From Terriglobia bacterium (GTDB lineage Bacteria; Acidobacteriota; Terriglobia; JAIQFV01): a stretch of 62,765 bases of DNA. Shown here piece by piece: positions 47,044 through 62,765 of the stretch; the stretch's first letter is position 1; every line of letters starts with the position of its first letter. The stretch covers positions 73,649 through 136,413 of the forward strand of contig JAIQFY010000009.1 in the NCBI GenBank assembly GCA_020072965.1. Reading direction: 5' to 3'. The position numbers were made by a program, and so were the translations under genes. The notes below the pieces were generated by a model. That model worked only from the letters and a program-made list of their open reading frames with translations, was not told the origin of the DNA and ran no database searches.

Positions 47044-47547
47044 GTGACTGTGGAGCCGACAGACATTCACACCGCCTATCTGGGTCTCGGAAGCAACGTC
47101 GAAGACAAGCGCGAGAACCTTCGGCTGGCCCGGGTTTGGCTTCAGACTCCCGCTGTCAGAATTGTTCGGGAATCTTCCATCTACAGAACGTCTCCTGTGG
47201 ATTACCTCGAACAGGACTGGTTCTTCAACCAGGTACTGGCCGTTGAAACCCCGCTCTCCCCGGAGGAATTGCTGGCACACTGCTTAAGCGTTGAAATCAA
47301 AATCGGGCGGGAACGGACATTCGACAAGGGTCCAAGGACTATTGACATCGACCTCCTGTTTTATGAAAGCAATGTCATCAACCGTTTCGATCTGGTCGTT
47401 CCCCATCCACACCTCGCCGAAAGGAAATTCGTTCTGGTCCCGATGGCTGAGCTCGCTCCTGATTTTGTTCATCCCCTCCTTATGAAGCCTATTCGCACCC
47501 TGCTTGCTGAACGGGCCAATGACCCCGCCAAAGTAGAGCTCCTCTGA
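47044..47547 (+). CDS. folK: 2-amino-4-hydroxy-6-hydroxymethyldihydropteridine diphosphokinase
   Basis: 167 residues; GTG start with GAAGAGG upstream. HPPK transfers pyrophosphate from ATP in folate synthesis. Motifs: YLGLGSNVEDKRENL near the N-terminus, SSIYRTSPV, FFNQVLAVET, RERTFDKGPRTIDIDLLFY (Asp pair for Mg) and VPHPHLAERKFVLVPM. Complete. Confidence 0.96.
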   Translation: MTVEPTDIHTAYLGLGSNVEDKRENLRLARVWLQTPAVRIVRESSIYRTSPVDYLEQDWFFNQVLAVETPLSPEELLAHCLSVEIKIGRERTFDKGPRTIDIDLLFYESNVINRFDLVVPHPHLAERKFVLVPMAELAPDFVHPLLMKPIRTLLAERANDPAKVELL

Positions 47548-49785: not shown

Positions 49786-51585
49786 ATGACCGCCAATGGA
49801 TGGCTTCAGATAACCTTCTTTCTTGTGCTGATCTTTGCCGTGACCAAGCCGATGGGCGTCTTCATGGCCCACGTATTCAGCCGCGAGCGGACATTTATGG
49901 ACCCTGTGTTGCGGCCGATGGAGCGGTTGCTCTACCACATCACCGGTGTGGATGAAAATCACGAGATGCGTTGGACCGAGTATGCGGTTTCAATGCTTCT
50001 ATTCAGCGTCGTCTCGATGCTGCTGTTGTACCTGATCGAGCGGCTGCAAGGGTTCCTGCCCTTCAACCCGCAACAGCTCGGCGCGGTGTCGCCTCCTCAC
50101 CTGGCATTCAACACTGCCGCTTCCTTCACAACAAACACGAACTGGCAAAACTACAGTGGCGAAGCGACGATGAGCTATTTCACTCAGATGGCGGGGCTTG
50201 CCTACCACAATTTCGTCTCGGCGGCGGTGGGCATTGCACTCGCTATCGCATTCATCCGCGGCATCGCGCGTCGGCAGATGGAGACGATTGGCAACTTCTG
50301 GGTCGACCTGGTTCGGAGTTGTCTGTGGGTGCTCTTACCGTTCTGCATCGTCGGGGCTTTGCTGCTGGTCTCGCAAGGCGTCGTCCAGAATCTTCGGCCG
50401 TATGACAAGGCTGCTCTGGTGGAGCCGTTTCAGGTACAGAAAGTCGGCCCAGACGGGAAGCCAATGGTCGGACCCGACGGCAAACCCGTAATGGACACGG
50501 TGGCCGAACAAACCATCGCGCAAGGGCCGGTTGCATCGCAGGAGATCATCAAGGAGTTCGGTACCAATGGCGGTGGCTTCTTCAACGCAAATAGTGCCCA
50601 TCCGTTTGAGAACCCGACACCTTTCTCCAACCTCATTGAATTGTTCTCGATTTTCACAATTGGGGCAGGGCTCACCTACACACTCGGGCGGATGACGGGC
50701 TCCGAGCGTCATGGCTGGGCCGTGTGGGCTGCCATGGCGATCCTGTTCCTGGCCGGTGTGACGGCCGCCTATTGGGCAGAGGCGCACGGGAATCCCCTCC
50801 TTCCGGGGGTGGATCAGCGGGCGGGCGCTCTCCAACCGGGCGGAAACATGGAGGGCAAAGAGGTCCGCTTGGGCATCGCCAACTCGTCGCTGTTCGCGAC
50901 CGTGACCACCGACGCAAGCTGCGGTGCGATCAACGGGTGGCATGATTCATATACCCCACTGGGCGGCATGGTTCCGCTCGTGAACATCATGCTGAGCGAG
51001 GTCATCTTCGGCGGAGTCGGAGCGGGGATGTACGGCATTCTGATTTACGTGGTGCTGGCCGTGTTTATCGCGGGGTTGATGGTGGGCCGCACGCCGGAGT
51101 ATCTGGGCAAGAAGATCGAAGCCTACGATGTGAAAATGGCCATGCTCGTCGCGCTGGTGTTTCCCCTGGTCATTCTGATCTTCACCGGCATTTCTGTTGT
51201 GAAAGGATTCGGGACCTCCAGCATTTCGAATCCGGGGCCACACGGTTTGACGCAAATCTTGTACGCATTTACGTCCCAGGCAGGCAATAACGGCTCCGCC
51301 TTCGGTGGTCTCACCGGGAATACGCCCTGGTACAACACATCCGGCGGCATTACCATGCTGGTGGGCCGGTTCTTCATGATCATCCCTATGCTGGGCATTG
51401 CCGGCAACCTGGCGCGGAAGAAATATGTTCCTCCCTCGCTGGGTACTTTTCCTGTGACCACCCCGCTCTTCACAGTGCTCTTAATGGGCGTGATCTTGAT
51501 TGTCGGGGCCCTGACATTCTTCCCGGCGCTCAGTCTCGGCCCGATCCTTGAGCATTTGCTCATGAGCGCGGGCAAAGTCTTCTGA
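49786..51585 (+). CDS. kdpA: KdpA, K+-channel-like subunit
   Basis: 599 residues with about ten membrane helices. Selectivity-filter-type loops are visible: [32 protein letters not shown], the GGAI/CGAINGW region and [12 protein letters not shown]. It selects and conducts K+ for the KdpB pump. Length and order are standard. Residues 220-240 carry a short GPDGKP duplication. Confidence 0.98.
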
Positions 51586-51596
51586 AGGATTCTACG

Positions 51597-53660
51597 ATGA
51601 CGGCTAAAACAAAGAAGAAAGCAGTTTGGGATTGGGGGATTGTCCGGAGGGCCATCTGGGGTGCCTTCGTGAAATTGAATCCTCGAAAAATGATGGGGAA
51701 TCCCGTCATGTTTGTCGTGGAAATCGGCAGCGTGATCACCACGGCGCTGCTCCTGCGCGATGTCATTCAAGGCCACCCGGGCTTAAGGTTCAACTTGCAG
51801 ATCACGCTGTGGCTATGGTTCACGGTGGTGTTTGCCAACTTTGCCGAAGCCATGGCCGAGGGACGCGGCAAAGCCCAGGCGGACACCCTCCGGAAGGCCA
51901 AGACCGAAACGCTGGCCAACCTCATTGTCGAAGATCAGGCCCCCGGGATCGAAGGAGTTAAGACCGCCGAAACTCCCGCCTCCAAATTGCGGAAGGGAGA
52001 CATGGTTCTGGTGAGGGCGGGAGAGTTCATCCCCGGTGATGGAGAGGTCACCGAGGGCGTTGCTTCGGTAGACGAGTCCGCCATCACGGGTGAAAGTGCG
52101 CCAGTCATCCGCGAGTCGGGTGGCGACCGTTCGGCAGTGACGGGCGGCACGAGAGTCATATCTGATTGGATCAAGATATGCATCAGTTCCAATCCCGGAG
52201 AGACATTTCTCGATCGGATGATCGCACTTGTCGAGGGAGCGGAGCGGCAGAAGACCCCCAACGAAATCGCGCTGAACATCCTGCTCGCCGGGTTAACCAT
52301 CATCTTCCTTCTCGCGGTCGTGACGCTGCAACCGTTCGCCATTTATTCGGGCTCCCCGCAGACCGTGTTTGTCCTGGTCTCATTGCTTGTGTGTCTGATT
52401 CCCACGACCATCGGCGGGCTGCTCTCGGCGATCGGCATCGCCGGCATGGATCGTGTGATTCAACACAATGTTCTGGCTATGTCCGGTCGCGCCGTGGAAG
52501 CGGCCGGCGATGTAAACACATTGCTCCTGGACAAAACGGGGACCATCACCCTCGGCAACCGCCAGGCGGTCGAGTTCATTCCGCTCCCCGGCATAGAGGA
52601 AAATGAAATCGCGGATGCCGCACAGCTCTCCAGTCTTTCCGACGAAACCCCGGAGGGCCGCTCCATCGTTGTGCTTGCCAAGACCAAGTATGGATTGCGC
52701 GGCCGCGAACTGGCCGCCCATGAAGCGCATTTTATTCCATTCTCCGCGCACACCCGGATGTCGGGAGTGGACCTCAATGGCCGCAGCATCCGTAAAGGCG
52801 CAGCCGACGCCATTGTTGAATACATCATTTCCCAGGAAGGCACGGTTCCCAAAGAGTTGAAGGCCTCCGTCGAGCGGATTTCAAGCACGGGCGGAACACC
52901 GCTGGTGGTCGCCGATCGCAATCGGGCGCTCGGTGTAATCCATCTAAAAGACATAGTCAAAGGGGGCATGCGGGAGCGGTTTGACCACCTGAGACAAATG
53001 GGCATTAGAACCGTGATGATCACTGGGGACAACCCGTTAACCGCAGCGGCCATCGCCCGCGAGGCGGGCGTGGACGATTTCCTGGCGGAGGCCAAACCTC
53101 AGGACAAGATGGATTTGATCCGGCGCGAGCAGGCCCAGGGAAAGCTGGTGGCCATGACCGGCGATGGGACAAACGACGCCCCCGCCCTGGCGCAGGCCGA
53201 CGTCGGCGTCGCGATGAATACTGGAACGATGCCCGCCAAAGAGGCCGGCAATATGGTCGACCTCGACTCCAACCCCACCAAGCTGATCGAGATCGTGGAA
53301 ATCGGCAAACAATTGCTCATGACCCGCGGCGCCCTAACGACGTTTTCCATCGCCAACGATGTGGCAAAGTATTTTGCCATTATTCCTGCAATGTTTGCGG
53401 GGACCTTCCCCGTCTTAAACGCGCTGAACATCATGCGCCTGCGCACTCCCGAGTCCGCGGTGCTCTCAGCGGTGATTTTCAACGCCCTGATCATCGTCGC
53501 TTTGATTCCCCTGGCACTGCGTGGGGTGAAGTACCGCCCGCTCGGCGCCGCAGCTCTCCTGCGGCGCAATCTCTGGGTCTATGGCGTCGGTGGAATCATC
53601 ATTCCCTTCATTGGCATCAAGTTGATTGACATGCTGATCACTCGTATCGGCCTTGCATAG
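51597..53660 (+). CDS. kdpB: KdpB, ATP-hydrolysing P-type subunit
   Basis: 687 residues, P-type ATPase. Phosphorylation motif DKTGTIT with Asp312, TGES in the actuator loop ([10 protein letters not shown]), the N-domain signature around KGAADAI, and the hinge [20 protein letters not shown]. It powers high-affinity K+ uptake. Eleven bases after kdpA. Confidence 0.98.
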
Positions 53661-53672
53661 GAGGACCTCGTT

Positions 53673-54263
53673 ATGAAGAAGAACGTTGTCACGGCAGTCC
53701 TGATGACCTTGGTCACGACCGTCCTGCTCGGAATTATTTACCCGCTGGTGGTGACGGGTATCGCCCGGGTTTTGTTTCCCCATAAGGCCGACGGGCAACT
53801 GATTGTAGTGAACGGGAAAGTCTTGGGGTCCCGTCTCATCGGACAGGCTTTTTCCGGTCCAGGCTATTTCCACTCCCGGCCTTCCGCCGCCGGCAATGGC
53901 TACGACGCCAGCAATTCCAATGGATCGCAACTCGGACCGACAAATCGCCAGCTCATCGACCGGGTGAAAGGCGATGTGGCCACATTGCAGGCGGAGAATC
54001 CGAATGTGCCCGTCCCGATTGACCTGGTGACCGCCTCGGCTTCGGGCCTCGATCCGCACATTACGCCAGCGGCGGCAGCGTTTCAGCTGCCACGGGTCGC
54101 GAAAGTGCGAGGGACCAATGAAGGGGACCTGCGCAGCCTCGTGGCGAAGCACACGGAAGGCAGGCAATTCGGATTTCTCGGTGAATCACGGGTGAATGTC
54201 CTGGAACTCAATCTCGAGCTGGATGAAAAATTTCCTGCCCAGAGACATGCCAGGGCGGAATAG
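53673..54263 (+). CDS. kdpC: KdpC, regulatory subunit of the K+-transporting ATPase
   Basis: 196 residues with an N-terminal anchor helix (AVLMTLVTTVLLGIIYPLVVTG), then the periplasmic part with SRPSAAGNGYDASNSNGSQLGPTN and ITPAAAAFQLPRVA. GGAGGACC precedes the ATG. Complete. Confidence 0.97.
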   Translation: MKKNVVTAVLMTLVTTVLLGIIYPLVVTGIARVLFPHKADGQLIVVNGKVLGSRLIGQAFSGPGYFHSRPSAAGNGYDASNSNGSQLGPTNRQLIDRVKGDVATLQAENPNVPVPIDLVTASASGLDPHITPAAAAFQLPRVAKVRGTNEGDLRSLVAKHTEGRQFGFLGESRVNVLELNLELDEKFPAQRHARAE

Positions 54264-54271
54264 GATGAACC

Positions 54272-56143
54272 ATGAAAACCCTGCGGCAAAAACTGGCGAT
54301 TAGTTACGGAATACTGACCCTCGTCATGATGGGGGTCAGCGCGGTGGGCATCTATCATTTCGTCCGGCTGGGTCGCGCCGTGGATACCATCCTCGCCAAT
54401 AACTATAAGAGCATTGTTGCTGCCGAAAATATGAAGGAAGCGCTCGAGCGGGAGGACTCGGCGGCCATGTTTTTCATCGCGAGCCATCGGGACAAGGCCG
54501 GGCAGCAGTTCTCAACCAATGCACAGAAGTTTGCCGAGCAATTCCAGATTGCCGCGAACAATGTCACCGAGCCCGGAGAGGACAAGATCATCAGCGATAT
54601 CGATACGAAATATTCGGGATACAGGCGGGCGTTGGAAGGATTTATCGGCAACAAGGAGAACCGGTCGTCAACAGAGGATTCCAGAATTTACTTTGACCAG
54701 ATTGAGCCCCCTTTCATTACGCTAAAGAACCGCTTGGATGATCTGCTGCATCTGAATCAGCAGGCCATGGTGAATGCCAACGAGCGCGCCTTGTCCGAAT
54801 CCCGGGATGCTCAGGTCTCGACAGTAACTGTGGTCTTTTTCGGCGTCCTCTTTGCACTGGCCTTTGCATGGCGCTTCTCCGCGTACGTCGTCGATCCCAT
54901 CCTTGCGCTCACCGAAAAAGCCCAACAAATCGCCGAGGGCGATTTCGACCAGCACATCGATATTTCCTCGGCAGATGAAATCGGAATTTTAGCGGCTGAG
55001 TTCAATCGAATGGCCGTCCACCTCAAAGACCTCAGGAAGTCCAATTATTGGCAGTTGCAAATCGAACAGAAGAAATCAAACGCGGTGATCGAATCCATTT
55101 ACGAGCCCGTTATTGTGACCGACGCACAAGGCCGGGTGATCAAGTTAAACCATACCGCCGCCCAACTGTTCGGTGTTTCCAAGAGCGCCGAAGAGATCGG
55201 CCGGGGTCTTTCACTTTCTGATTTCAGCGCCGGGGAACCCATCTTGCGCGCGGTGGAGGCGGCGGTCTCCATGCAACGCCCGGTCGCGGAAGAGACCGAG
55301 GCGGCGTTGGTGCCCATGAAGGTGGGGGAAACCGACCGGAGCTACCGCTTGCGCACCACGCCCATGCGGGATGAAAATGGACGACTTCTGGGTGCGGTCA
55401 CCCTTCTAGAGGATATCACCGCCCTTCGCGAGGTGGACCGGATCAAGAGCGATTTCATTTCCATCGCCTCGGGCAAACTGCGGACTCCACTCCAGTCACT
55501 TCAATTGGCACTCCATACCCTGGCGGGACACTACGCCGGCGAGTTGACTGACCAGCAGCTGGACCTGCTGATGGACGCGCGTTGTAATGCCGAACAGCTG
55601 GATGATCTGATGGGGGATCTGCTCCAGCTGGCCGAAATTGACTCAGGAGCGCACAAGATGTCATTTGATGCATGCCGGCCCATTGATCTGGTACGGGAGG
55701 CCATCCTGCAACATGCCGCTCTGGCGGAGAGTCGTCATATCAAGTTGGAACACACCGTCGCGCCGGATCTGCCCTACGTTATGGCCGACCGGCAAGCGGT
55801 GAAACGGATCTTCGACAATCTGTTGTCGAATGCCCTTCGACATACCCATCGCGACGGACAAGTAACGATCTCCGCAGAGGAACGGGAGAACACTGTGGTA
55901 TTCTCGGTCCGGGACACCGGCGAAGGGATTCGCGAGGAATACCTGCCTAACATCTTCAGCCGGTTCATCCATGCCCAAGGAAAACCGGGGGGCGGAACGG
56001 GATTGGGTCTGGCCTTGGTGAAACGATTGGTTGAGGCCGAGGGCGGGCAGGTGGCCGTCTCCAGTGTTGTGGGTTCAGGGGCCGTGTTTACCTTTACTCT
56101 TCCTTTGGGAGGTTCTACAGTGGGTGCTCGAGTACAGACATGA
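54272..56143 (+). CDS. HAMP/PAS histidine-kinase homologue lacking the phospho-accepting His
   Basis: 623 residues. Layout: TM1 (about 10-30), periplasmic four-helix sensor (about 31-185), TM2 (about 186-205), HAMP (PILALTEKAQQIAEGDFDQHI), PAS (about 265-370), a HisKA-like dimerisation segment (about 385-455) and a complete HATPase domain with N box FDNLLSNALRHT, G1 RDTGEGI and G2 GGGTGLGLAL. The H-box reads ASGKLRTPL, with Gly401-Lys402 where His-Glu is normal. KinB-like architecture. ATG 54272 follows kdpC by eight bases; its stop overlaps kdpD-N (ATGA), so it belongs to the operon. Confidence 0.88.
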   Translation: MKTLRQKLAISYGILTLVMMGVSAVGIYHFVRLGRAVDTILANNYKSIVAAENMKEALEREDSAAMFFIASHRDKAGQQFSTNAQKFAEQFQIAANNVTEPGEDKIISDIDTKYSGYRRALEGFIGNKENRSSTEDSRIYFDQIEPPFITLKNRLDDLLHLNQQAMVNANERALSESRDAQVSTVTVVFFGVLFALAFAWRFSAYVVDPILALTEKAQQIAEGDFDQHIDISSADEIGILAAEFNRMAVHLKDLRKSNYWQLQIEQKKSNAVIESIYEPVIVTDAQGRVIKLNHTAAQLFGVSKSAEEIGRGLSLSDFSAGEPILRAVEAAVSMQRPVAEETEAALVPMKVGETDRSYRLRTTPMRDENGRLLGAVTLLEDITALREVDRIKSDFISIASGKLRTPLQSLQLALHTLAGHYAGELTDQQLDLLMDARCNAEQLDDLMGDLLQLAEIDSGAHKMSFDACRPIDLVREAILQHAALAESRHIKLEHTVAPDLPYVMADRQAVKRIFDNLLSNALRHTHRDGQVTISAEERENTVVFSVRDTGEGIREEYLPNIFSRFIHAQGKPGGGTGLGLALVKRLVEAEGGQVAVSSVVGSGAVFTFTLPLGGSTVGARVQT

Positions 56144-57303
56144 GCGTGAAGACCCCCGAGGCTGCTTCGCGGCCGAGCGCCGAATCGCTGCTCGCCAAAC
56201 TGGATGAGTCCGAGCGGGCGCGTCTGCGTATTTACATTGGCGCGGCGCCGGGCGTGGGTAAGACCTACGAAATGCTCCAGGACGCCCACATCCTGCGCAA
56301 ACAGCGGTATGACACGGTCATCGGGTTCGTCGAAACCTACGGCCGGGCCGAGACCGAAGCCAAGATTGCAGATCTCGAGATCATCCCCCGTAAGAAGATT
56401 GACTACCGTGGCGTTGTGCTCGAAGAGATGGATGTGGAGGCCATTGTGGCCCGCAAGCCGCAAGTTTGCCTCGTCGACGAACTGGCGCACAGCAACGTGC
56501 CGGGGTCCAGGAACCGCAAGCGCTATGAGGACGTGCTGGACCTTCTCGAGGCCGGCATCCATGTCATGACCGCCGTTAACATCCAGCACATGGAAACCCT
56601 CAATGATGTGATTGCCCGTTCCTCAGGGGTGCGCGTCCGCGAAACGGTCCCGGACAGTTTTCTCAAACGCGCCGACGAAGTGGTCAACGTGGACGTGACT
56701 GTTGAGGAACTGCGCAATCGCCTGCGGCAGGGGAAGATTTACAAGCCCGAAAAAGTCGAGCAGGCGCTCACCAATTTTTTCCGAAAGGGCAATCTTTCCA
56801 CCCTCCGTGAATTGGCGCTGCGGGCGGTTGCCGAGGAGGTGGGCGCCAAGGCCGCCCAGTACCGGGCCCGGGAAGGGCTTGAACCGGCTCAGATTCCTGA
56901 AAAGGTCATGGTCTCCATGTCATCGAGTTCCACAGCGCTCAAATTGCTGCGAACGGGTGCGCGCATTGCCGGACGTCTGGGTGCCGTGTGGTTTGCTGTT
57001 CATGTGGATACCGCCGGTGCCTCGGGAACTCCATTGAAACCTGAAGATGCCGCTCAGTTGCAGCAGAATACAGGACTGGCGGAGGAACTGGGAGCCACGG
57101 TGGTGAATCTCAAGTCCGGAAAAGTCGCGGACGCCCTCATTGAATTTGCAAAGCGGGAAGGAATTACTCATGTCATCTTCGGGCAGTCCGCACGCTCGCG
57201 GTGGGAGATTCTGTTGAGGGGATCGATCATCAACCGGTTTCTTGCCGCCGTGAAAGATGCTGCCGTCCAGGTGATTCCTCCGGGAGAAGTCCCGCGCAGA
57301 TAG
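56140..57303 (+). CDS. kdpD: KdpD N-terminal module: KdpD sensor ATPase plus USP domain, free-standing
   Basis: 387 residues. The KdpD domain has Walker A GAAPGVGKT (34-42), VDELAHSNVPGSRN and AGIHVMTAVNIQHMETLND; a universal-stress-protein-like domain follows (about 240-380, VMVSMSSSSTALKLLRTGAR, VIFGQSARSRWEILLRGSI). The membrane and kinase parts of normal KdpD (about 900 residues) are missing here and encoded by the next gene but one. Cytoplasmic; may sense K+/ATP or c-di-AMP via the USP domain as in other KdpDs. Confidence 0.94.
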   Translation: MSVKTPEAASRPSAESLLAKLDESERARLRIYIGAAPGVGKTYEMLQDAHILRKQRYDTVIGFVETYGRAETEAKIADLEIIPRKKIDYRGVVLEEMDVEAIVARKPQVCLVDELAHSNVPGSRNRKRYEDVLDLLEAGIHVMTAVNIQHMETLNDVIARSSGVRVRETVPDSFLKRADEVVNVDVTVEELRNRLRQGKIYKPEKVEQALTNFFRKGNLSTLRELALRAVAEEVGAKAAQYRAREGLEPAQIPEKVMVSMSSSSTALKLLRTGARIAGRLGAVWFAVHVDTAGASGTPLKPEDAAQLQQNTGLAEELGATVVNLKSGKVADALIEFAKREGITHVIFGQSARSRWEILLRGSIINRFLAAVKDAAVQVIPPGEVPRR

Positions 57304-57729: not shown

Positions 57730-59286
57730 GTGAAGGTGACTACTCGCCAGAAATGGTTCAACTATGCCGCTTCAGCAGCGGGTGTGGCCGCCGTTGTTGC
57801 TCTGTACAAGCTCCTCATCTTAAGAGTAAACAACACGACCGTGGCGCTCAGTTTTCTTTTGGTCGTGCTCCTCTCCGCCTCCACCTCCGGACTCGGCCCT
57901 GCTATCCTAGCCTCCCTGGCAGGCATGCTATGCTTTAACTATTTCTTTCTGCCGCCCATCGGCTTGTTCACCGTCCAGGATCCACAGAATTGGATCGCCC
58001 TGGCAGCATTCCTGGTCACTGCGGTGATTGCCAGTCATCTTTCTTCGACCGCACGCTCCCGTGCCCGTGATGCCGAGAAGCGCCGGCAGGAAATGTGGAA
58101 GCTATTCCAACTCGGCCGGGCCATCATCCTGATCACCGACACCGGAACCGCTGTTTCCTCAATTGCGCGCCAGGTCGTGGAAATCTTCGCTGGCAGCTAT
58201 TGCTCAGTTTTTGTCCGCGATGAAGTCAGCGACTGGCAGCGGGTTGCCACCGCGGCCGATGCTTCAGATCTCAACTCCTTTCTTCCCTCCGAGACGGTGA
58301 TGGACGAGGTGTTCGAAACCGGAGAAACGAAATTTCAGCCGCTCCATGTGGAAGGGCGTGATGGGAAGGCCAGGATCAAGGGTGGAGAGATCATTTTCTT
58401 TTCTCCGTTGCGCGTGGGCGTAAAATCCATCGGGATTCTGGTTGTGATCTCAAGATCGATTGAACGCGAGACTCTGGACGCCATGGCAGGCTTGGTGGCC
58501 CTTGCCCTCGAGCGGGCCCGTTTCCTCAAAGAACTCAGTCGTACCGAAGCCTTGAGACAGAGCAACGAACTGAAGTCGGCGGTGCTGGCGTCGGTTTCAC
58601 ATGACTTGCGGACGCCCCTCACCTCGATCCGGGCCTCGATTGACAACCTTCTTCAGAACGAGGTGGAATGGGACAAAGCCAGCTTACAAGAGTTTCATCT
58701 CATCATCAGCGAAGAGGTCGGCCGCCTGTCCCGCCTGGTGGACAACCTGTTGGAGATGGCCCGGATTGAAGCAGGAGAGTTGCGACCCTCGAAGCAGTGG
58801 GGCTCGGTCTCTGAGGTCATCACACAAGTGCTGAACCGGTGCACTTCCGTCATCCAGGACCACTTGGTGGGTATTGATTTCAAGGAGGACTTGCCTCTCG
58901 TGGAGATGGACTCGCGCCTCATTGCCCAGGCGCTCTCCAACCTGGTTGAGAATGCGGGCCAGTATTCACCACCGGGCACAAAGATCCTGTTGCAATCCCG
59001 TGTTGAGGGCGGCCACTTAATCTTCACCGTCCACGATCAGGGTCCGGGGATTGGGCGCGAGGAGATGGATCGCATTTTTGACAAGTTCTACCGCGGCCGG
59101 CATTCTCCGATGCGTCGCGGCGAAGGGACTGGCATGGGCCTCCCCATCGCCCGAGGCATTGCGGAAGCCCACGGGGGCACCATCGGGTGCGAGAATAATC
59201 CTGACAGCGGCGCGACCTTTACTTTGAAAATACCGGTCGAGTGCAAGGAGAGTCCGGAGACAGTCGCCGCCGGTGAGGAACCCTGA
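57730..59286 (+). CDS. KdpD C-terminal module: DUF4118-GAF histidine kinase
   Basis: 518 residues. Four membrane helices (DUF4118, about 5-105, ending in NWIALAAFLVTAVIASHLSSTARSR broken at VIASHL), a GAF domain (about 130-260), HisKA with intact His291 (SVSHDLRTPL), then HATPase motifs NLVENAGQYSPPG, HDQGPGIGREE and GTGMGLPIARGI. This corresponds to the transmembrane and transmitter half of KdpD. It should phosphorylate KdpE, encoded 118 bases downstream. GTG 57730 has no visible Shine-Dalgarno; no better in-frame start keeps helix 1. Confidence 0.92.
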   Translation: MKVTTRQKWFNYAASAAGVAAVVALYKLLILRVNNTTVALSFLLVVLLSASTSGLGPAILASLAGMLCFNYFFLPPIGLFTVQDPQNWIALAAFLVTAVIASHLSSTARSRARDAEKRRQEMWKLFQLGRAIILITDTGTAVSSIARQVVEIFAGSYCSVFVRDEVSDWQRVATAADASDLNSFLPSETVMDEVFETGETKFQPLHVEGRDGKARIKGGEIIFFSPLRVGVKSIGILVVISRSIERETLDAMAGLVALALERARFLKELSRTEALRQSNELKSAVLASVSHDLRTPLTSIRASIDNLLQNEVEWDKASLQEFHLIISEEVGRLSRLVDNLLEMARIEAGELRPSKQWGSVSEVITQVLNRCTSVIQDHLVGIDFKEDLPLVEMDSRLIAQALSNLVENAGQYSPPGTKILLQSRVEGGHLIFTVHDQGPGIGREEMDRIFDKFYRGRHSPMRRGEGTGMGLPIARGIAEAHGGTIGCENNPDSGATFTLKIPVECKESPETVAAGEEP

Positions 59287-59404
59287 GGTCGCTTCCTGAA
59301 AGGTTCCTTGAATTGAAGGCTTCCGACAGCGGCGGCTTGCATTTCTGTCCGGCCCGAACAAATTTCCTCCGCTCATCAGGAATTCGAAATCCATCAAAAT
59401 AGTG

Positions 59405-60112
59405 ATGTCACATCCATCCCTTCCCCGAAAACCAGTCCTGCTCGTCGTCGATGATGAACCGCAAATCCTGCGGGTCATGCGCACCAGCTTGCCAGTGCGA
59501 GGATATGACGTCAGGACGGTGGCTTCAGGGGAAGAAGCGTTGGACGAGGTTCGCAAGGAACTTCCGGACGTCATCATCCTTGACCTGATGATGCCGGGCA
59601 TGTCCGGTCTGGAGGTGTGCCGTCGATTGCGCGAGTTTTCGGAGGTTCCAATCATTGTGCTCTCGGCCCGCGGCTCCGAAAAGGATAAAGTCTCAGCGCT
59701 GGACTTGGGGGCGGATGACTATGTCACGAAACCGTTCAGCATGGAGGAGCTCCTGGCACGACTGCGGGCTGTGCTGCGTCGCGTTTCGTCTTCGACGCCA
59801 GGGAGTGCCACCTGGACCGTCGGTGACATTACCCTCAACACGGACGAGCGGCGCGTGACGGTGGCCGGAAGGGAAGTCAAGCTTACTCCCAAGGAGTTTG
59901 AAGTGCTCAAGTATCTGGTCAGCAACGCCGGAAAGGTAGTGACCCATCGCGCCCTGCTGCAGGCGGTTTGGGGATGGGAATCCTCGGATCAAACGGAATA
60001 CCTCCGGGTGTTCATCAACCAGTTGCGGCGCAAGATTGAACCTGCTCCACAGAAGCCTCGGTATATCCTGACTGAACCTTGGGTGGGCTATCGCTTGAGT
60101 CCGGGTGATTAG
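59405..60112 (+). CDS. kdpE: KdpE response regulator
   Basis: 235 residues from ATG 59405 (GTG 59402 adds one). OmpR/PhoB type: receiver with VVDDEP, phospho-acceptor Asp60 in ILDLMMPG, Ser87 and Lys109 (VTKPFS); winged-helix domain with LTPKEFEVLKYL and RVFINQLRRKIE ending TEPWVGYRL, typical of KdpE. It should activate kdp transcription. Last gene of the locus. Confidence 0.96.
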   Translation: MSHPSLPRKPVLLVVDDEPQILRVMRTSLPVRGYDVRTVASGEEALDEVRKELPDVIILDLMMPGMSGLEVCRRLREFSEVPIIVLSARGSEKDKVSALDLGADDYVTKPFSMEELLARLRAVLRRVSSSTPGSATWTVGDITLNTDERRVTVAGREVKLTPKEFEVLKYLVSNAGKVVTHRALLQAVWGWESSDQTEYLRVFINQLRRKIEPAPQKPRYILTEPWVGYRLSPGD

Positions 60113-60246: not shown

Positions 60247-60921
60247 ATGCCGCCCCGCGCGTTTTTCGACTCACAGCCACAGGCCCTTCATCCCCGCTAC
60301 ATTGCCATTGAAGGTCCGATTCACGTCGGAAAGTCCCGGCTGGTCGAGATCCTGGCTGAGCGCGTTCACGCCCGCCGGATCCTGGACTGCAGGGACAATC
60401 CCTTCTTGAGAGATTTTTACGAGGATCGGGCGGGAGCTGGCTTTGCTTCGCAGATGTACTTCCTGATGCAGCGATATAAATTGCTCAAGGAGTTCGACTC
60501 TTCGGCCTCTTATGCGTCGACCATCCTGAGCGATTTTATTTTTGAAAGGGACAAGATCTTTGCCTTCATAAATCTGGGCGATGAGGAACTCCGCATCTAC
60601 GAACAGTACTTCTCGCTGTTGAGCGAGCAACTTCCCAAGCCGGACCTGGTGATCTACCTTCAGACCACGACCGAAGCGCTCATGCGCCGGATTGAGAAAA
60701 GCGAGAAGAACTTCGAGGGCCAGATTTCATTCGATTACCTCACTGAAGTCGTCAAGGCCTTTGACCACTTCTTCTTTCATTACAGCGCCACTGACCTGCT
60801 GGTGATCAATACGGCGGAAATTGACTTCGTGGAGCGGAACGAGGATCTGAATGATTTGCTGCATCGCCTCCAACAACCCGTCAAAGGCACCCAGTATTAC
60901 CTACCCCTCAAATCAAAATGA
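60247..60921 (+). CDS. Deoxynucleoside kinase
   Basis: 224 residues, dNK family. P-loop GPIHVGKSRL, then NPFLRDFYED, FQ-type MYFLMQRYKLL, the DFIFERDKIFA segment (DRS-like site) and LQTTTEALMRRIEKSEKNFE. It phosphorylates deoxynucleosides for salvage; the base preference cannot be read from sequence. Next genes are panB and panC. No Shine-Dalgarno ahead of the ATG. Confidence 0.9.
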   Translation: MPPRAFFDSQPQALHPRYIAIEGPIHVGKSRLVEILAERVHARRILDCRDNPFLRDFYEDRAGAGFASQMYFLMQRYKLLKEFDSSASYASTILSDFIFERDKIFAFINLGDEELRIYEQYFSLLSEQLPKPDLVIYLQTTTEALMRRIEKSEKNFEGQISFDYLTEVVKAFDHFFFHYSATDLLVINTAEIDFVERNEDLNDLLHRLQQPVKGTQYYLPLKSK

Positions 60922-61431
60922 TCCCGGAAAGCCAGAAAATCTCAAGTTCCAAACACCAGGATCCAACCAGGTTTCAGAGATCAGGCTCCTGGAGCGGCCA
61001 AGGCCGATGTTAAATACCGCTCCGCAGGAAATTGCGTGCTCCGTCAGGTAACGCATCTTTTCCTGCCCTGAAAGGGCAGTCTTCAACAGCCTGGGGCAAC
61101 GCCCCAGGACCAAGGAATATTATTGATCCTTCATTTGCCCTGTAAGGGCAATCCTGTGGTGGGGAGGTCTTCCATGGTGAGGATCGCTGGAACCCGGGTG
61201 GAGGAAGTCATGCAATAATGCCTACCGCGTGAATGCCTTCTTGAGGTACAATAGAAATGGAATGAGCTTTGCCGAAGGCTGGATTTGAATGAGCCAACCA
61301 CGGGAGCCGCGACCGCCACAATGCAGTCCGTTGAGCGGAACGCCGGTTCACTCCCGGGCGTGGTGCGGCGTTGTTCGGTCAGCACGATAAGGCCCGTGAA
61401 GGTTCTACCAATTCTTTTGGAGGATACTTCG
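60922..61431. other. Intergenic region, 510 bases, with REP hairpins
   Basis: Between the kinase and panB. It holds CCAAACACC/AAGTTCC bits near 60945 and the REP pair at 61064-61151. A TACAAT is at about 61247. The panB ribosome site GGAGGA is near 61420. Confidence 0.6.
61064..61151. repeat. Solitary REP pair, no transposase
   Basis: TGCCCTGAAAGGGCA (61064-61078), CCTGGGGCAACGCCCCAGG (61090-61108) and TTGCCCTGTAAGGGCAA (61135-61151). Same motifs and order as the ends of the IS200-like element 40 kb away. Confidence 0.85.
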
Positions 61432-62301
61432 ATGAGTCAACAGAGTACGTCTCAACCCGCCCAGATTACCGTCCCGAAGATTTTCCAAAGAAAATTCAAT
61501 CGTGACAAGATCACCTGTCTCACGGCATATGATTTTTCGATGGCCCGCATTGTCGATGAGGCCGGGATCGACATCATCCTGGTCGGCGATTCGGTGGGGA
61601 TGGTTCAGCTCGGGTACGATTCCACATTACCCGTGGGTATGGAGGAAATGTTGATGCACGTGCGGGCTGTGCGGCGAGGAGTCGGGCGGGCCTTATTGGT
61701 AGCCGACATGCCCTACGGCTCCTTTCAGGTCAGCGAGGAAGAGGCAGTCCGCAATGCTCTCCGGTTCGTCAAGGAGGGCGGCGCTGAGGCAGTCAAACTG
61801 GAAGGCGGCGTGAAGCGAGCTTCGCTGGTGAACCGGTTGATGGACGCGGAAGTCCCGGTGATGGGACACGTCGGTCTGACGCCCCAGTCCCTGCTCAATT
61901 TCGGCGGTTTTAAGGTTCAGGGACAAACCGAGGCCGCCGGAGAGCGCATTCTGGAGGACGCCCTGGCCCTCGATGCAGCGGGCGTATTTTCGATTGTCCT
62001 CGAAGGGATCCCCCGCGACCTCGCCCAGCGAATCACGGCAGCCGTCAAGGCCCCCACCATCGGCATTGGCGCAGGGCCTGACTGTGACGGCCAGGTGCTG
62101 GTCCTGAACGATCTGCTCGGCCTGAACAGCGGGCGTGTTCCCAAGTTCGTGCGGCAATACGCGCACCTCCGCGAATCCGCGGCCTCTGCCATTTCCGAAT
62201 TCATTGAGGATGTCAAGAATTCCCGCTTCCCTTCCGACCAGGAATCCTATCATTCGGAAACCCCCCATGGAAATCGTATCCAAAGCATCTCGAATGCGTG
62301 A
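61432..62301 (+). CDS. panB: 3-methyl-2-oxobutanoate hydroxymethyltransferase PanB
   Basis: 289 residues from ATG 61432, with TTGGAGGA upstream; the longer frame has no family similarity. It makes ketopantoate for pantothenate/CoA. Visible: LTAYDFSMARIVDEAGID, LVGDSVGMV, ADMPYGSFQ, KLEGG, MGHVGLTPQS and IGIGAGPDCDGQVLV. The panC start overlaps the panB end by 35 bases. Confidence 0.97.
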   Translation: MSQQSTSQPAQITVPKIFQRKFNRDKITCLTAYDFSMARIVDEAGIDIILVGDSVGMVQLGYDSTLPVGMEEMLMHVRAVRRGVGRALLVADMPYGSFQVSEEEAVRNALRFVKEGGAEAVKLEGGVKRASLVNRLMDAEVPVMGHVGLTPQSLLNFGGFKVQGQTEAAGERILEDALALDAAGVFSIVLEGIPRDLAQRITAAVKAPTIGIGAGPDCDGQVLVLNDLLGLNSGRVPKFVRQYAHLRESAASAISEFIEDVKNSRFPSDQESYHSETPHGNRIQSISNA

Positions 62302-62765
62302 GGTGGCCAGGGCGCTCCATGCCCGCCAACAGTCCCTCGCATTCGTCCCCACCATGGGGGCTTTGCACGAGGGTCATCTGAGCCTGGTCCGGCGGGCGCG
62401 CGAACTCGCCGACGCCGTCGTCGTGTCCATCTTTGTCAACCCCGCCCAGTTTGGACCCAATGAGGACTTCACCCGATATCCCCGCGATCTCGAAAATGAC
62501 TGCCGAATGCTCTCCGCCCTGGGCGTCGATTATCTATTCACTCCTGAAGTCGGGGAAATGTATCCGGACGATTCCCGTACTTTCGTTGAAGTGGAACGCT
62601 GGGGAGATTACCTTTGTGGGGCCACTCGTCCCGGCCATTTTCGCGGTGTAACGACCGTGGTCGCGAAACTGTTTAACATTGTCATGCCCGACTTTGCGGT
62701 GTTCGGACGGAAGGATGCACAGCAGGCGATTCTCATCGAACGGATGACCCGCGACTTGAAATTCG
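62267..62765 (+). CDS. panC: Pantothenate synthetase PanC, 3' end outside window
   Basis: The first 166 residues are visible and the frame stays open to the end. PTMGALHEGHLSLV (His34 and His37, ATP-binding), SIFVNPAQFGPNEDFTRYPR, GHFRGVTTVVAKLFNIV and FGRKDAQQ identify PanC, which ligates pantoate and beta-alanine. ATG 62267 lies within panB, so the two are translationally coupled. Confidence 0.96.
   Translation, partial: MEIVSKASRMREVARALHARQQSLAFVPTMGALHEGHLSLVRRARELADAVVVSIFVNPAQFGPNEDFTRYPRDLENDCRMLSALGVDYLFTPEVGEMYPDDSRTFVEVERWGDYLCGATRPGHFRGVTTVVAKLFNIVMPDFAVFGRKDAQQAILIERMTRDLKF

Follow-up and report, generated by a model that had tools for sequence, protein, structure and literature searches.

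A clade-wide, apparently ancient loss of the phospho-accepting histidine in a sensor kinase kept beside the KdpD N-terminal protein suggests control of a serine kinase

The window, meaning the whole stretch of 62,765 nucleotides analysed here from a Terriglobia bacterium (Acidobacteriota), contains a kdp cluster in the gene order kdpA, kdpB, kdpC, a sensor kinase without the phospho-accepting His (the His-less kinase), a stand-alone KdpD N-terminal protein (KdpD-N), the KdpD kinase half (KdpD-C), and kdpE:

49786 to 51585, + strand: kdpA
51597 to 53660, + strand: kdpB, with an ITGES motif whose Ser167 is the equivalent of E. coli Ser162
53673 to 54263, + strand: kdpC (Pfam)
54272 to 56143, + strand: His-less kinase, a putative pseudo-histidine kinase of 623 aa with an ATG start and membrane sensor, HAMP, PAS, DHp and CA parts (open reading frame, Pfam)
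54278 to 54766, + strand: its four-helix-bundle sensor, residues 3-165 (4HB_MCP_1, PF12729; four long helices in the model)
54878 to 55027, + strand: its HAMP domain, residues 203-252 (Pfam)
55091 to 55429, + strand: its PAS domain (PAS_4), residues 274-386 (Pfam)
55445 to 55648, + strand: its HisKA/DHp domain, residues 392-459 (Pfam; model helices 383-418 and 427-458)
55472 to 55477, + strand: GGC AAA, giving Gly401-Lys402 at the phospho-accepting His and the next Glu (codons, alignment)
55787 to 56107, + strand: its HATPase_c domain, residues 506-612, with N, G1, F and G2 boxes intact (Pfam, alignment)
56140 to 57303, + strand: KdpD-N, with Walker A/B and Usp (PF02702, Usp)
57730 to 59286, + strand: KdpD-C, with TM (DUF4118), a weak GAF, HisKA with His291, and HATPase (Pfam, alignment)
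59402 to 60112, + strand: KdpE response regulator with Asp61 (Pfam, alignment)

The cluster is flanked on one side by an open reading frame (47044-47547) that we take to be folK-like, and on the other by open reading frames (60247-62764) that presumably encode lookalikes of deoxynucleoside kinase, panB, and panC. Directly upstream of kdpA lies a BBP2 beta-barrel porin gene (PF07642, 47760-49490); BBP2-like matches recur near kdp genes in L039, L087, L104, L114, L116, L119, L133, and L134, which raises the possibility that a porin of the outer membrane is part of the potassium system.

The H-box of the His-less kinase reads IASGKLRTPL, with GGC (55472-55474) encoding Gly401 and AAA (55475-55477) encoding Lys402, and the codons thus bear out the replacement of His-Glu described in the initial annotation. 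The intact N, G1, and G2 boxes (DNLLSNALRHT, DTGEGI, and GTGLGL) and the four-base overlap with the KdpD-N open reading frame, which starts at 56140, were likewise found as described, and the F box is intact as well. Pfam scores were 36.7 bits for HisKA (cut-off 26.9) and 95 bits for HATPase_c. The designation as a Kdp-operon sensor kinase holds for the position of the gene but not for its sequence: the best NCBIfam matches were WalK and PnpS, all under their cut-offs, indicating that the protein is not a KdpD; Pfam found no KdpD domain (PF02702), Usp, DUF4118 membrane domain, or GAF on its chain; and the best local match to the KdpD-C locus of its own genome, which encodes the KdpD kinase half with its His, was just 26% identical. 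The NCBIfam KdpD_non_kinase match of the window KdpD-N falls short of its cut-off. As a control, the window genome gave 17 kinase matches, from which seven other loci were read; six of these kinases have the His, and in the seventh the H-box lies beyond the alignment.

Homologs were sought at two depths. Among 399 genomes of the class (E <= 1e-60), 25 had a match, and none of the 24 with a readable H-box had the His; the 25th (G081) has Ala at the site in the final codon of its contig and is counted apart, as a 31st case. Among 396 genomes drawn across the phylum (E <= 1e-45), 53 matched, at 54 places, with the H-box read only in the supplied loci, of which L085 stops short of it, and weaker matches (29-35% identity) left unread. 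This set added His-less homologs in G629 (61% identity; Ser at the site), G406 (57%; Asn), and G748 (Ser), together with a second His-less group, a trio from family f83 (G657 Gln, G755 Ala, G759 Gln), which lies near His-bearing homologs. The nearest homologs with His, in G467, G737 (two copies), G631, and G603, were ∼40% identical. A scan of named genomes yielded just six distant kinases (23-35% identity), no match was found on plasmids at 1e-40, and PADLOC detected nothing.

Across the two groups of relatives the site is non-His in all 30 readable members, 27 of which make up the window clade, and the H-box alignment of homologs called for by the initial annotation contained no close relative with His. 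The same-genus genome G001 has an 88% identical copy that also reads GKL, with identical GGC AAA codons. From these sequence comparisons, the loss of His in the window clade is confirmed as ancient. Sequencing error and recent loss were both rejected as explanations on the clade-wide absence of His and the shared codons of the same-genus copy.

The pattern of replacement differs from site to site within the H-box. Over the 27 clade rows, site 401 holds R in 12, Q in 4, S in 3, G, E, and K in 2 each, and N and L in 1 each, and positions 399, 400, 402-404, 406, and 407 (A-S-x-K-L-R and P-L) are each invariant; Tyr is at the His site in none. Residue 402 (His+1, Glu or Asp in orthodox HisKA domains) is Lys in every row, and residue 405 (His+4) is Asp in 19, Thr, Glu, and Gly in 2 each, and Ser and Asn in 1 each, so that Thr or Asn occurs at His+4 in three members, among them the window protein with Thr405. 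The 17 His-bearing homologs have Glu (9) or Gln (8) at 402 and Thr at 405 in all 17. The ATP-box residues N516, N520, D548, G550, G552, F562, F565, G575, G577, and G579 are invariant in the 27 clade members. In the H-E/D-x-x-T/N motif, Glu at His+1 serves the kinase reaction and Thr/Asn at His+4 the phosphatase reaction, and HisKA phosphatase activity needs the latter and not the former (excerpts of PMC3510030). With Lys at 402 and mostly neither Thr nor Asn at 405, the kinase chemistry appears to be gone from 27/27, and the phosphatase residue is gone from 24/27. The initial annotation's proposal of a protein that can bind ATP and cannot autophosphorylate in the usual way gains support from this alignment and would apply to the clade as a whole. 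A fixed replacement acceptor or a phosphomimic was considered and rejected, eight kinds of residue being present at 401.

Phylogenetic analysis of 51 kinase rows, with the H-box columns left out, placed the 27 His-less clade rows on one branch (support 100/100), and the f83 trio joined His-bearing rows (94/97); a tree with all 30 His-less rows forced together was not rejected (AU p 0.184). The His losses are few, amounting to one or two events. The trio, in which the N box is decaying as well (LGILLGNA in G657, ITLVINA in G759), possibly lost its His independently and is more advanced on the same course. The gene order in the trio (L093 G657, L112 G759, L113 G755) is KdpD-N then kinase.

The presence of His was matched by the presence of an adjacent response regulator. 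In a comparison of 47 loci (27 and 3 His-less, 17 His-bearing; G208, G748, and G377 have little flanking sequence on one side), a receiver gene adjoined the kinase in 17/17 His-bearing loci versus 0/30 His-less loci, an association that does not amount to 47 independent cases because it reflects one or two evolutionary changes. Nine of the His-bearing loci have the receiver downstream, at 9-37 bases from the kinase match; the remaining eight have it 1.14-1.30 kb upstream, encoded on the kinase strand. Only one of these eight was read out, that of G531, a sigma-54-type regulator with 164 bases between the end of its gene and the kinase. Among His-less loci, KdpE lies 2.9-3.3 kb off, past KdpD-N and KdpD-C, in the window (G000), G001, and G406, and in G755 a receiver lies 1.46 kb off, behind opposite-strand open reading frames and overlapping its own kinase gene. 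The regulators beside the G467, G737, and G631 kinases (L089 10517-11281, L090 6228-6983, and L092 9801-10562) are 251-254 aa long and consist of a receiver and ∼135 residues without a Pfam match, possibly an uncharacterised output domain judging from the sequence.

The constant neighbor of the His-less kinase is instead KdpD-N, which adjoins it in all 29 clade and f83 neighborhood loci read, and in G748. In the 22 genomes of family f9, the two genes stand alone together, no more than 8 bases apart in 19/22, without kdpABC in the locus; kdpA is found elsewhere in 21/22 of these genomes. The f9 kdpABC loci themselves have KdpD-C with its His and KdpE with its Asp in 15/16 read, the exception being G315, in which kdpABC (L129) occurs without KdpD-C or KdpE within 18 kb. 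A KdpD domain was found in 32/32 genomes tested, and the paired KdpD-N is always a stand-alone chain without the TM/GAF part. PF02702 is present in 277 of the 399 class genomes, mostly without the His-less kinase, and among the 30 best loci identity to the window KdpD-N is 60-95% beside a His-less kinase and 30-49% elsewhere. In a quick KdpD-N tree, the 39 rows from kinase-bearing genomes formed one starred branch that included 0/39 unpaired rows, which suggests that the two proteins are largely co-inherited. Two diverged KdpD-N genes stand in tandem in many class genomes, with 30-36% and 40-43% identity to the window protein (L136, L137, L139, L143-L145, L148, L152-L154, L159, and L124), several of them right after kdpC.

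Several genomes depart from this pattern. The KdpD-N proteins of G629 and G748 group with the His-bearing f34 set and f83 (99, starred), not with the window, but their His-less kinases group with the window, which may reflect an exchange of partners. In G631 the kinase bears His, yet the two KdpD-N copies fall outside the paired branch, and the KdpD-N gene of G081 is on another contig, behind a SecD-like open reading frame. In G205 (L051) the pair occurs without KdpA and the best KdpB match is a P-type ATPase at 34%; either a different protein is the target in this genome or the pair is a leftover. A mirror-tree correlation between kinase and KdpD-N distances (r = 0.91, 33 pairs) was set aside as evidence for coupling, since shared ancestry alone would give it.

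The KdpD domain of E. coli KdpD phosphorylates KdpB Ser162, as does the short KdpD of Deinococcus geothermalis, which c-di-AMP stimulates, and a Ser kinase of the KdpD type switches KdpFABC off; split ASK and HK chains have been described for Acidobacteriota (excerpts of PMC11018627). Walker A and B motifs were present in 33/33 KdpD-N proteins, and TGES in 26/26 KdpB proteins read. The Usp part has the E. coli-type RXXXR-X8-W in 33/33, and the published c-di-AMP consensus (A/G/C)XSXSX2N(Y/F) (excerpts of PMC8214093) was found in none of the 33. Both serines of the SXS motif (excerpts of PMC4686210) are present only in the window and G001, in both without the A/G/C and the N, and the S246 equivalent is Arg in 28/33. 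No diadenylate cyclase was found in the 22 f9 genomes with the His-less kinase; it was found in 12/12 other genomes tested, which include the window, G001, and G406 and all eight non-f9 genomes with a His-less kinase, and in 75 of 150 sampled f9 genomes. Absence of the cyclase as a strict correlate of the His-less kinase was weakened by those eight genomes and by f9 genera that lack the cyclase without having the kinase. In f9, the known inputs of KdpD serine kinases are not visible on or near KdpD-N, which leaves the His-less kinase as the only constant candidate. The window lineage keeps the cyclase, both SXS serines, and KdpD-C/KdpE, and c-di-AMP could still be an input there.

Selection was assessed from a single genome pair (window versus G001). 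The dN/dS of the His-less kinase was 0.105 overall and 0.062 in DHp, 0.113 in CA, 0.049 in PAS (residues 263-386), and 0.038 in HAMP, with the sensor as the least constrained part (0.152); in this genome pair the active KdpD-C gave 0.061 in DHp and 0.107 in CA. The DHp of the His-less kinase is under purifying selection as tight as in the neighboring active KdpD-C. An AlphaFold2 model (mean pLDDT 80.2, pTM 0.42) has ordinary DHp helices and a CA fold; at the sequence level, the PDB entry best matched by the family profile is DivL (4q20, E 1.2e-53), and Foldseek matches include WalK, DivL (TM (target) 0.80), ZraS, HK853, and NifL-NifA (9qq6). In f9, 14 of 22 proteins are ∼400-470 aa long, too short for a periplasmic sensor (start codons estimated); in the one short member scanned (L045), HAMP begins at residue 56 and the four-helix sensor is absent. 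Judging from these short proteins, HAMP-PAS-DHp-CA appears to be the conserved working part.

Three roles had been proposed for the protein in the initial annotation: decoy, phosphatase, or allosteric partner of the split KdpD. The last agrees best with the data if the N-terminal half of KdpD is taken as the partner, because KdpD-N stays beside the kinase and is largely co-inherited with it. A version directed at the other half, in which mixed dimers with KdpD-C or binding to KdpE tune kdp transcription, has a parallel in the crosstalk established for RetS/GacS, and in the window, G001, and G406 both genes lie further along the operon of the His-less kinase. We nevertheless regard it as unlikely: in 22/30 His-less cases, those of f9, the kinase gene is in a separate locus with KdpD-N alone and KdpD-C/KdpE are beside kdpABC elsewhere (15/16 such loci read), which also weakens the decoy proposal for KdpE; no KdpD-C or KdpE occurs within the loci read in G629, G657, and G759; and the similarity of the kinase to its own KdpD-C locus is low, as noted above.

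A response-regulator phosphatase that has lost kinase function alone is a poor fit and highly improbable, for although such activity needs Thr or Asn at His+4 and not Glu at His+1 (excerpts of PMC3510030) and the window protein has Thr405, just 3/27 members have such a residue (Thr in two, Asn in one), and 30/30 His-less loci have no adjacent regulator gene. Nor do the ATP boxes, intact in 27/27, make it more than very unlikely that the protein is still a kinase, with a second kinase's His as phosphate recipient within a mixed dimer or with another acceptor residue: site 401 offers no consistent acceptor, His415 of the window protein is Tyr in 22/27 clade members, Glu at 402 has become Lys in 27/27, and DivL, whose boxes are similar, lacks autokinase activity and shows weak ATP binding (excerpts of PMC4211667). 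That DHp and CA are a decaying relic, with only the membrane anchor and sensor, or nothing, still mattering, could draw on the decaying N box of f83 (G657, G759); it is scarcely credible given purifying selection on DHp and CA, the weaker constraint on the sensor, and the short f9 proteins, in which the sensor is the part that gets lost.

The reading that we favor, to which we give an even chance, is that the His-less kinase would be a pseudo-histidine kinase, sensing a signal and exerting allosteric control over the KdpD-N serine kinase, like NifL or DivL. The kinase tree and neighborhoods point to an ancestor that would have been a His-bearing kinase in kdp loci, next to KdpD-N and with its own response regulator, with change presumably running from that state; the regulator would have been lost, His then released from selection, and the protein retained as a dimeric, membrane-bound, ATP-binding PAS/HAMP sensor. 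It would bind KdpD-N and switch its serine-kinase activity, presumably acting as the controlling partner, in response to signals arriving via PAS and HAMP and possibly to bound ATP or ADP; KdpD-N in turn would halt potassium uptake by phosphorylating the serine in the TGES motif of KdpB. This model draws support from the clade-wide replacement of His and Glu, an ATP site and fold that remain intact, purifying selection, KdpD-N as the constant neighbor, the lack of an adjacent regulator, the Walker A/B motifs, and the TGES serine. Counting against it are the G205 pair without a pump, the separate contig of G081, the possible G629/G748 swap, the G631 copies, the KdpD-C/KdpE genes in the operon and the cyclase of the window, G001, and G406, and the cyclase-less f9 genera without the kinase. 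More tentatively, a two-component sensor may have been turned into a transmembrane protein devoted to controlling a P-loop serine kinase, gating the step from KdpD-N to the pump and, in f9, replacing c-di-AMP as the input in cyclase-less cells. If true, a histidine-kinase-to-serine-kinase signalling module would act on a transporter directly, with no response regulator involved.

Known systems offer partial precedents. DivL of Caulobacter resembles the His-less kinase in its HisKA/HATPase fold, with another residue in place of His and the four ATP boxes (N, G1, F, G2) kept, and its relation to CckA is a model for control of this type; DivL, however, has Tyr at the site in most species and senses DivK~P (excerpts of PMC4211667), whereas the site of the His-less kinase is freely variable and its neighbor is a P-loop serine kinase with no regulator adjacent. 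NifL of Azotobacter is likewise a PAS and histidine-kinase-like protein; its GHKL domain binds ADP, and it inhibits its partner NifA through a direct complex (excerpts of PMC8219145). The partner differs in kind, NifA being a transcription activator and KdpD-N a proposed serine kinase for the pump, and the His-less kinase is membrane-bound, unlike NifL. The NifL and NifA genes are operon neighbors. RetS/GacS is a further case in which a kinase-like protein acts on a second signalling protein outside a classical phosphorelay, but there both partners are histidine kinases, which KdpD-N is not. The window KdpD-N resembles E. coli KdpD and the short KdpD of Deinococcus in its KdpD domain, Walker A/B motifs, and Usp; compared with split ASK and TM/GAF HK chains, the window system adds a third, His-less kinase, of which no mention was found in the excerpts of PMC11018627. 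Nearest of all are the His-bearing HAMP-PAS kinases of kdp loci (G467, G737, G531), which belong to the same family at ∼40% identity for the nearest, share a similar KdpD-N locus, and, unlike the His-less kinase, retain His, Glu/Gln, and Thr as well as a receiver gene beside them.

Pseudo-histidine kinases and split KdpD are known already, the former, to our knowledge, mainly from single cases such as DivL. Word searches of the open-access literature did not turn up any paper describing a kinase without His in a kdp operon, nor was a family of His-less kinases tied to a KdpD serine kinase, with the His-bearing, regulator-linked state kept in relatives, found there. That His was lost clade-wide, yet the protein was kept beside the KdpD-N gene, suggests that it now steers KdpD-N instead of phosphorylating. 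One clade thus displays the transition, with relatives that have both His and regulator, relatives without either, and KdpD-N constant throughout; it offers a natural experiment on the role of a kinase domain once phosphotransfer has been given up, and a testable answer to what controls stand-alone KdpD serine kinases in bacteria without c-di-AMP.
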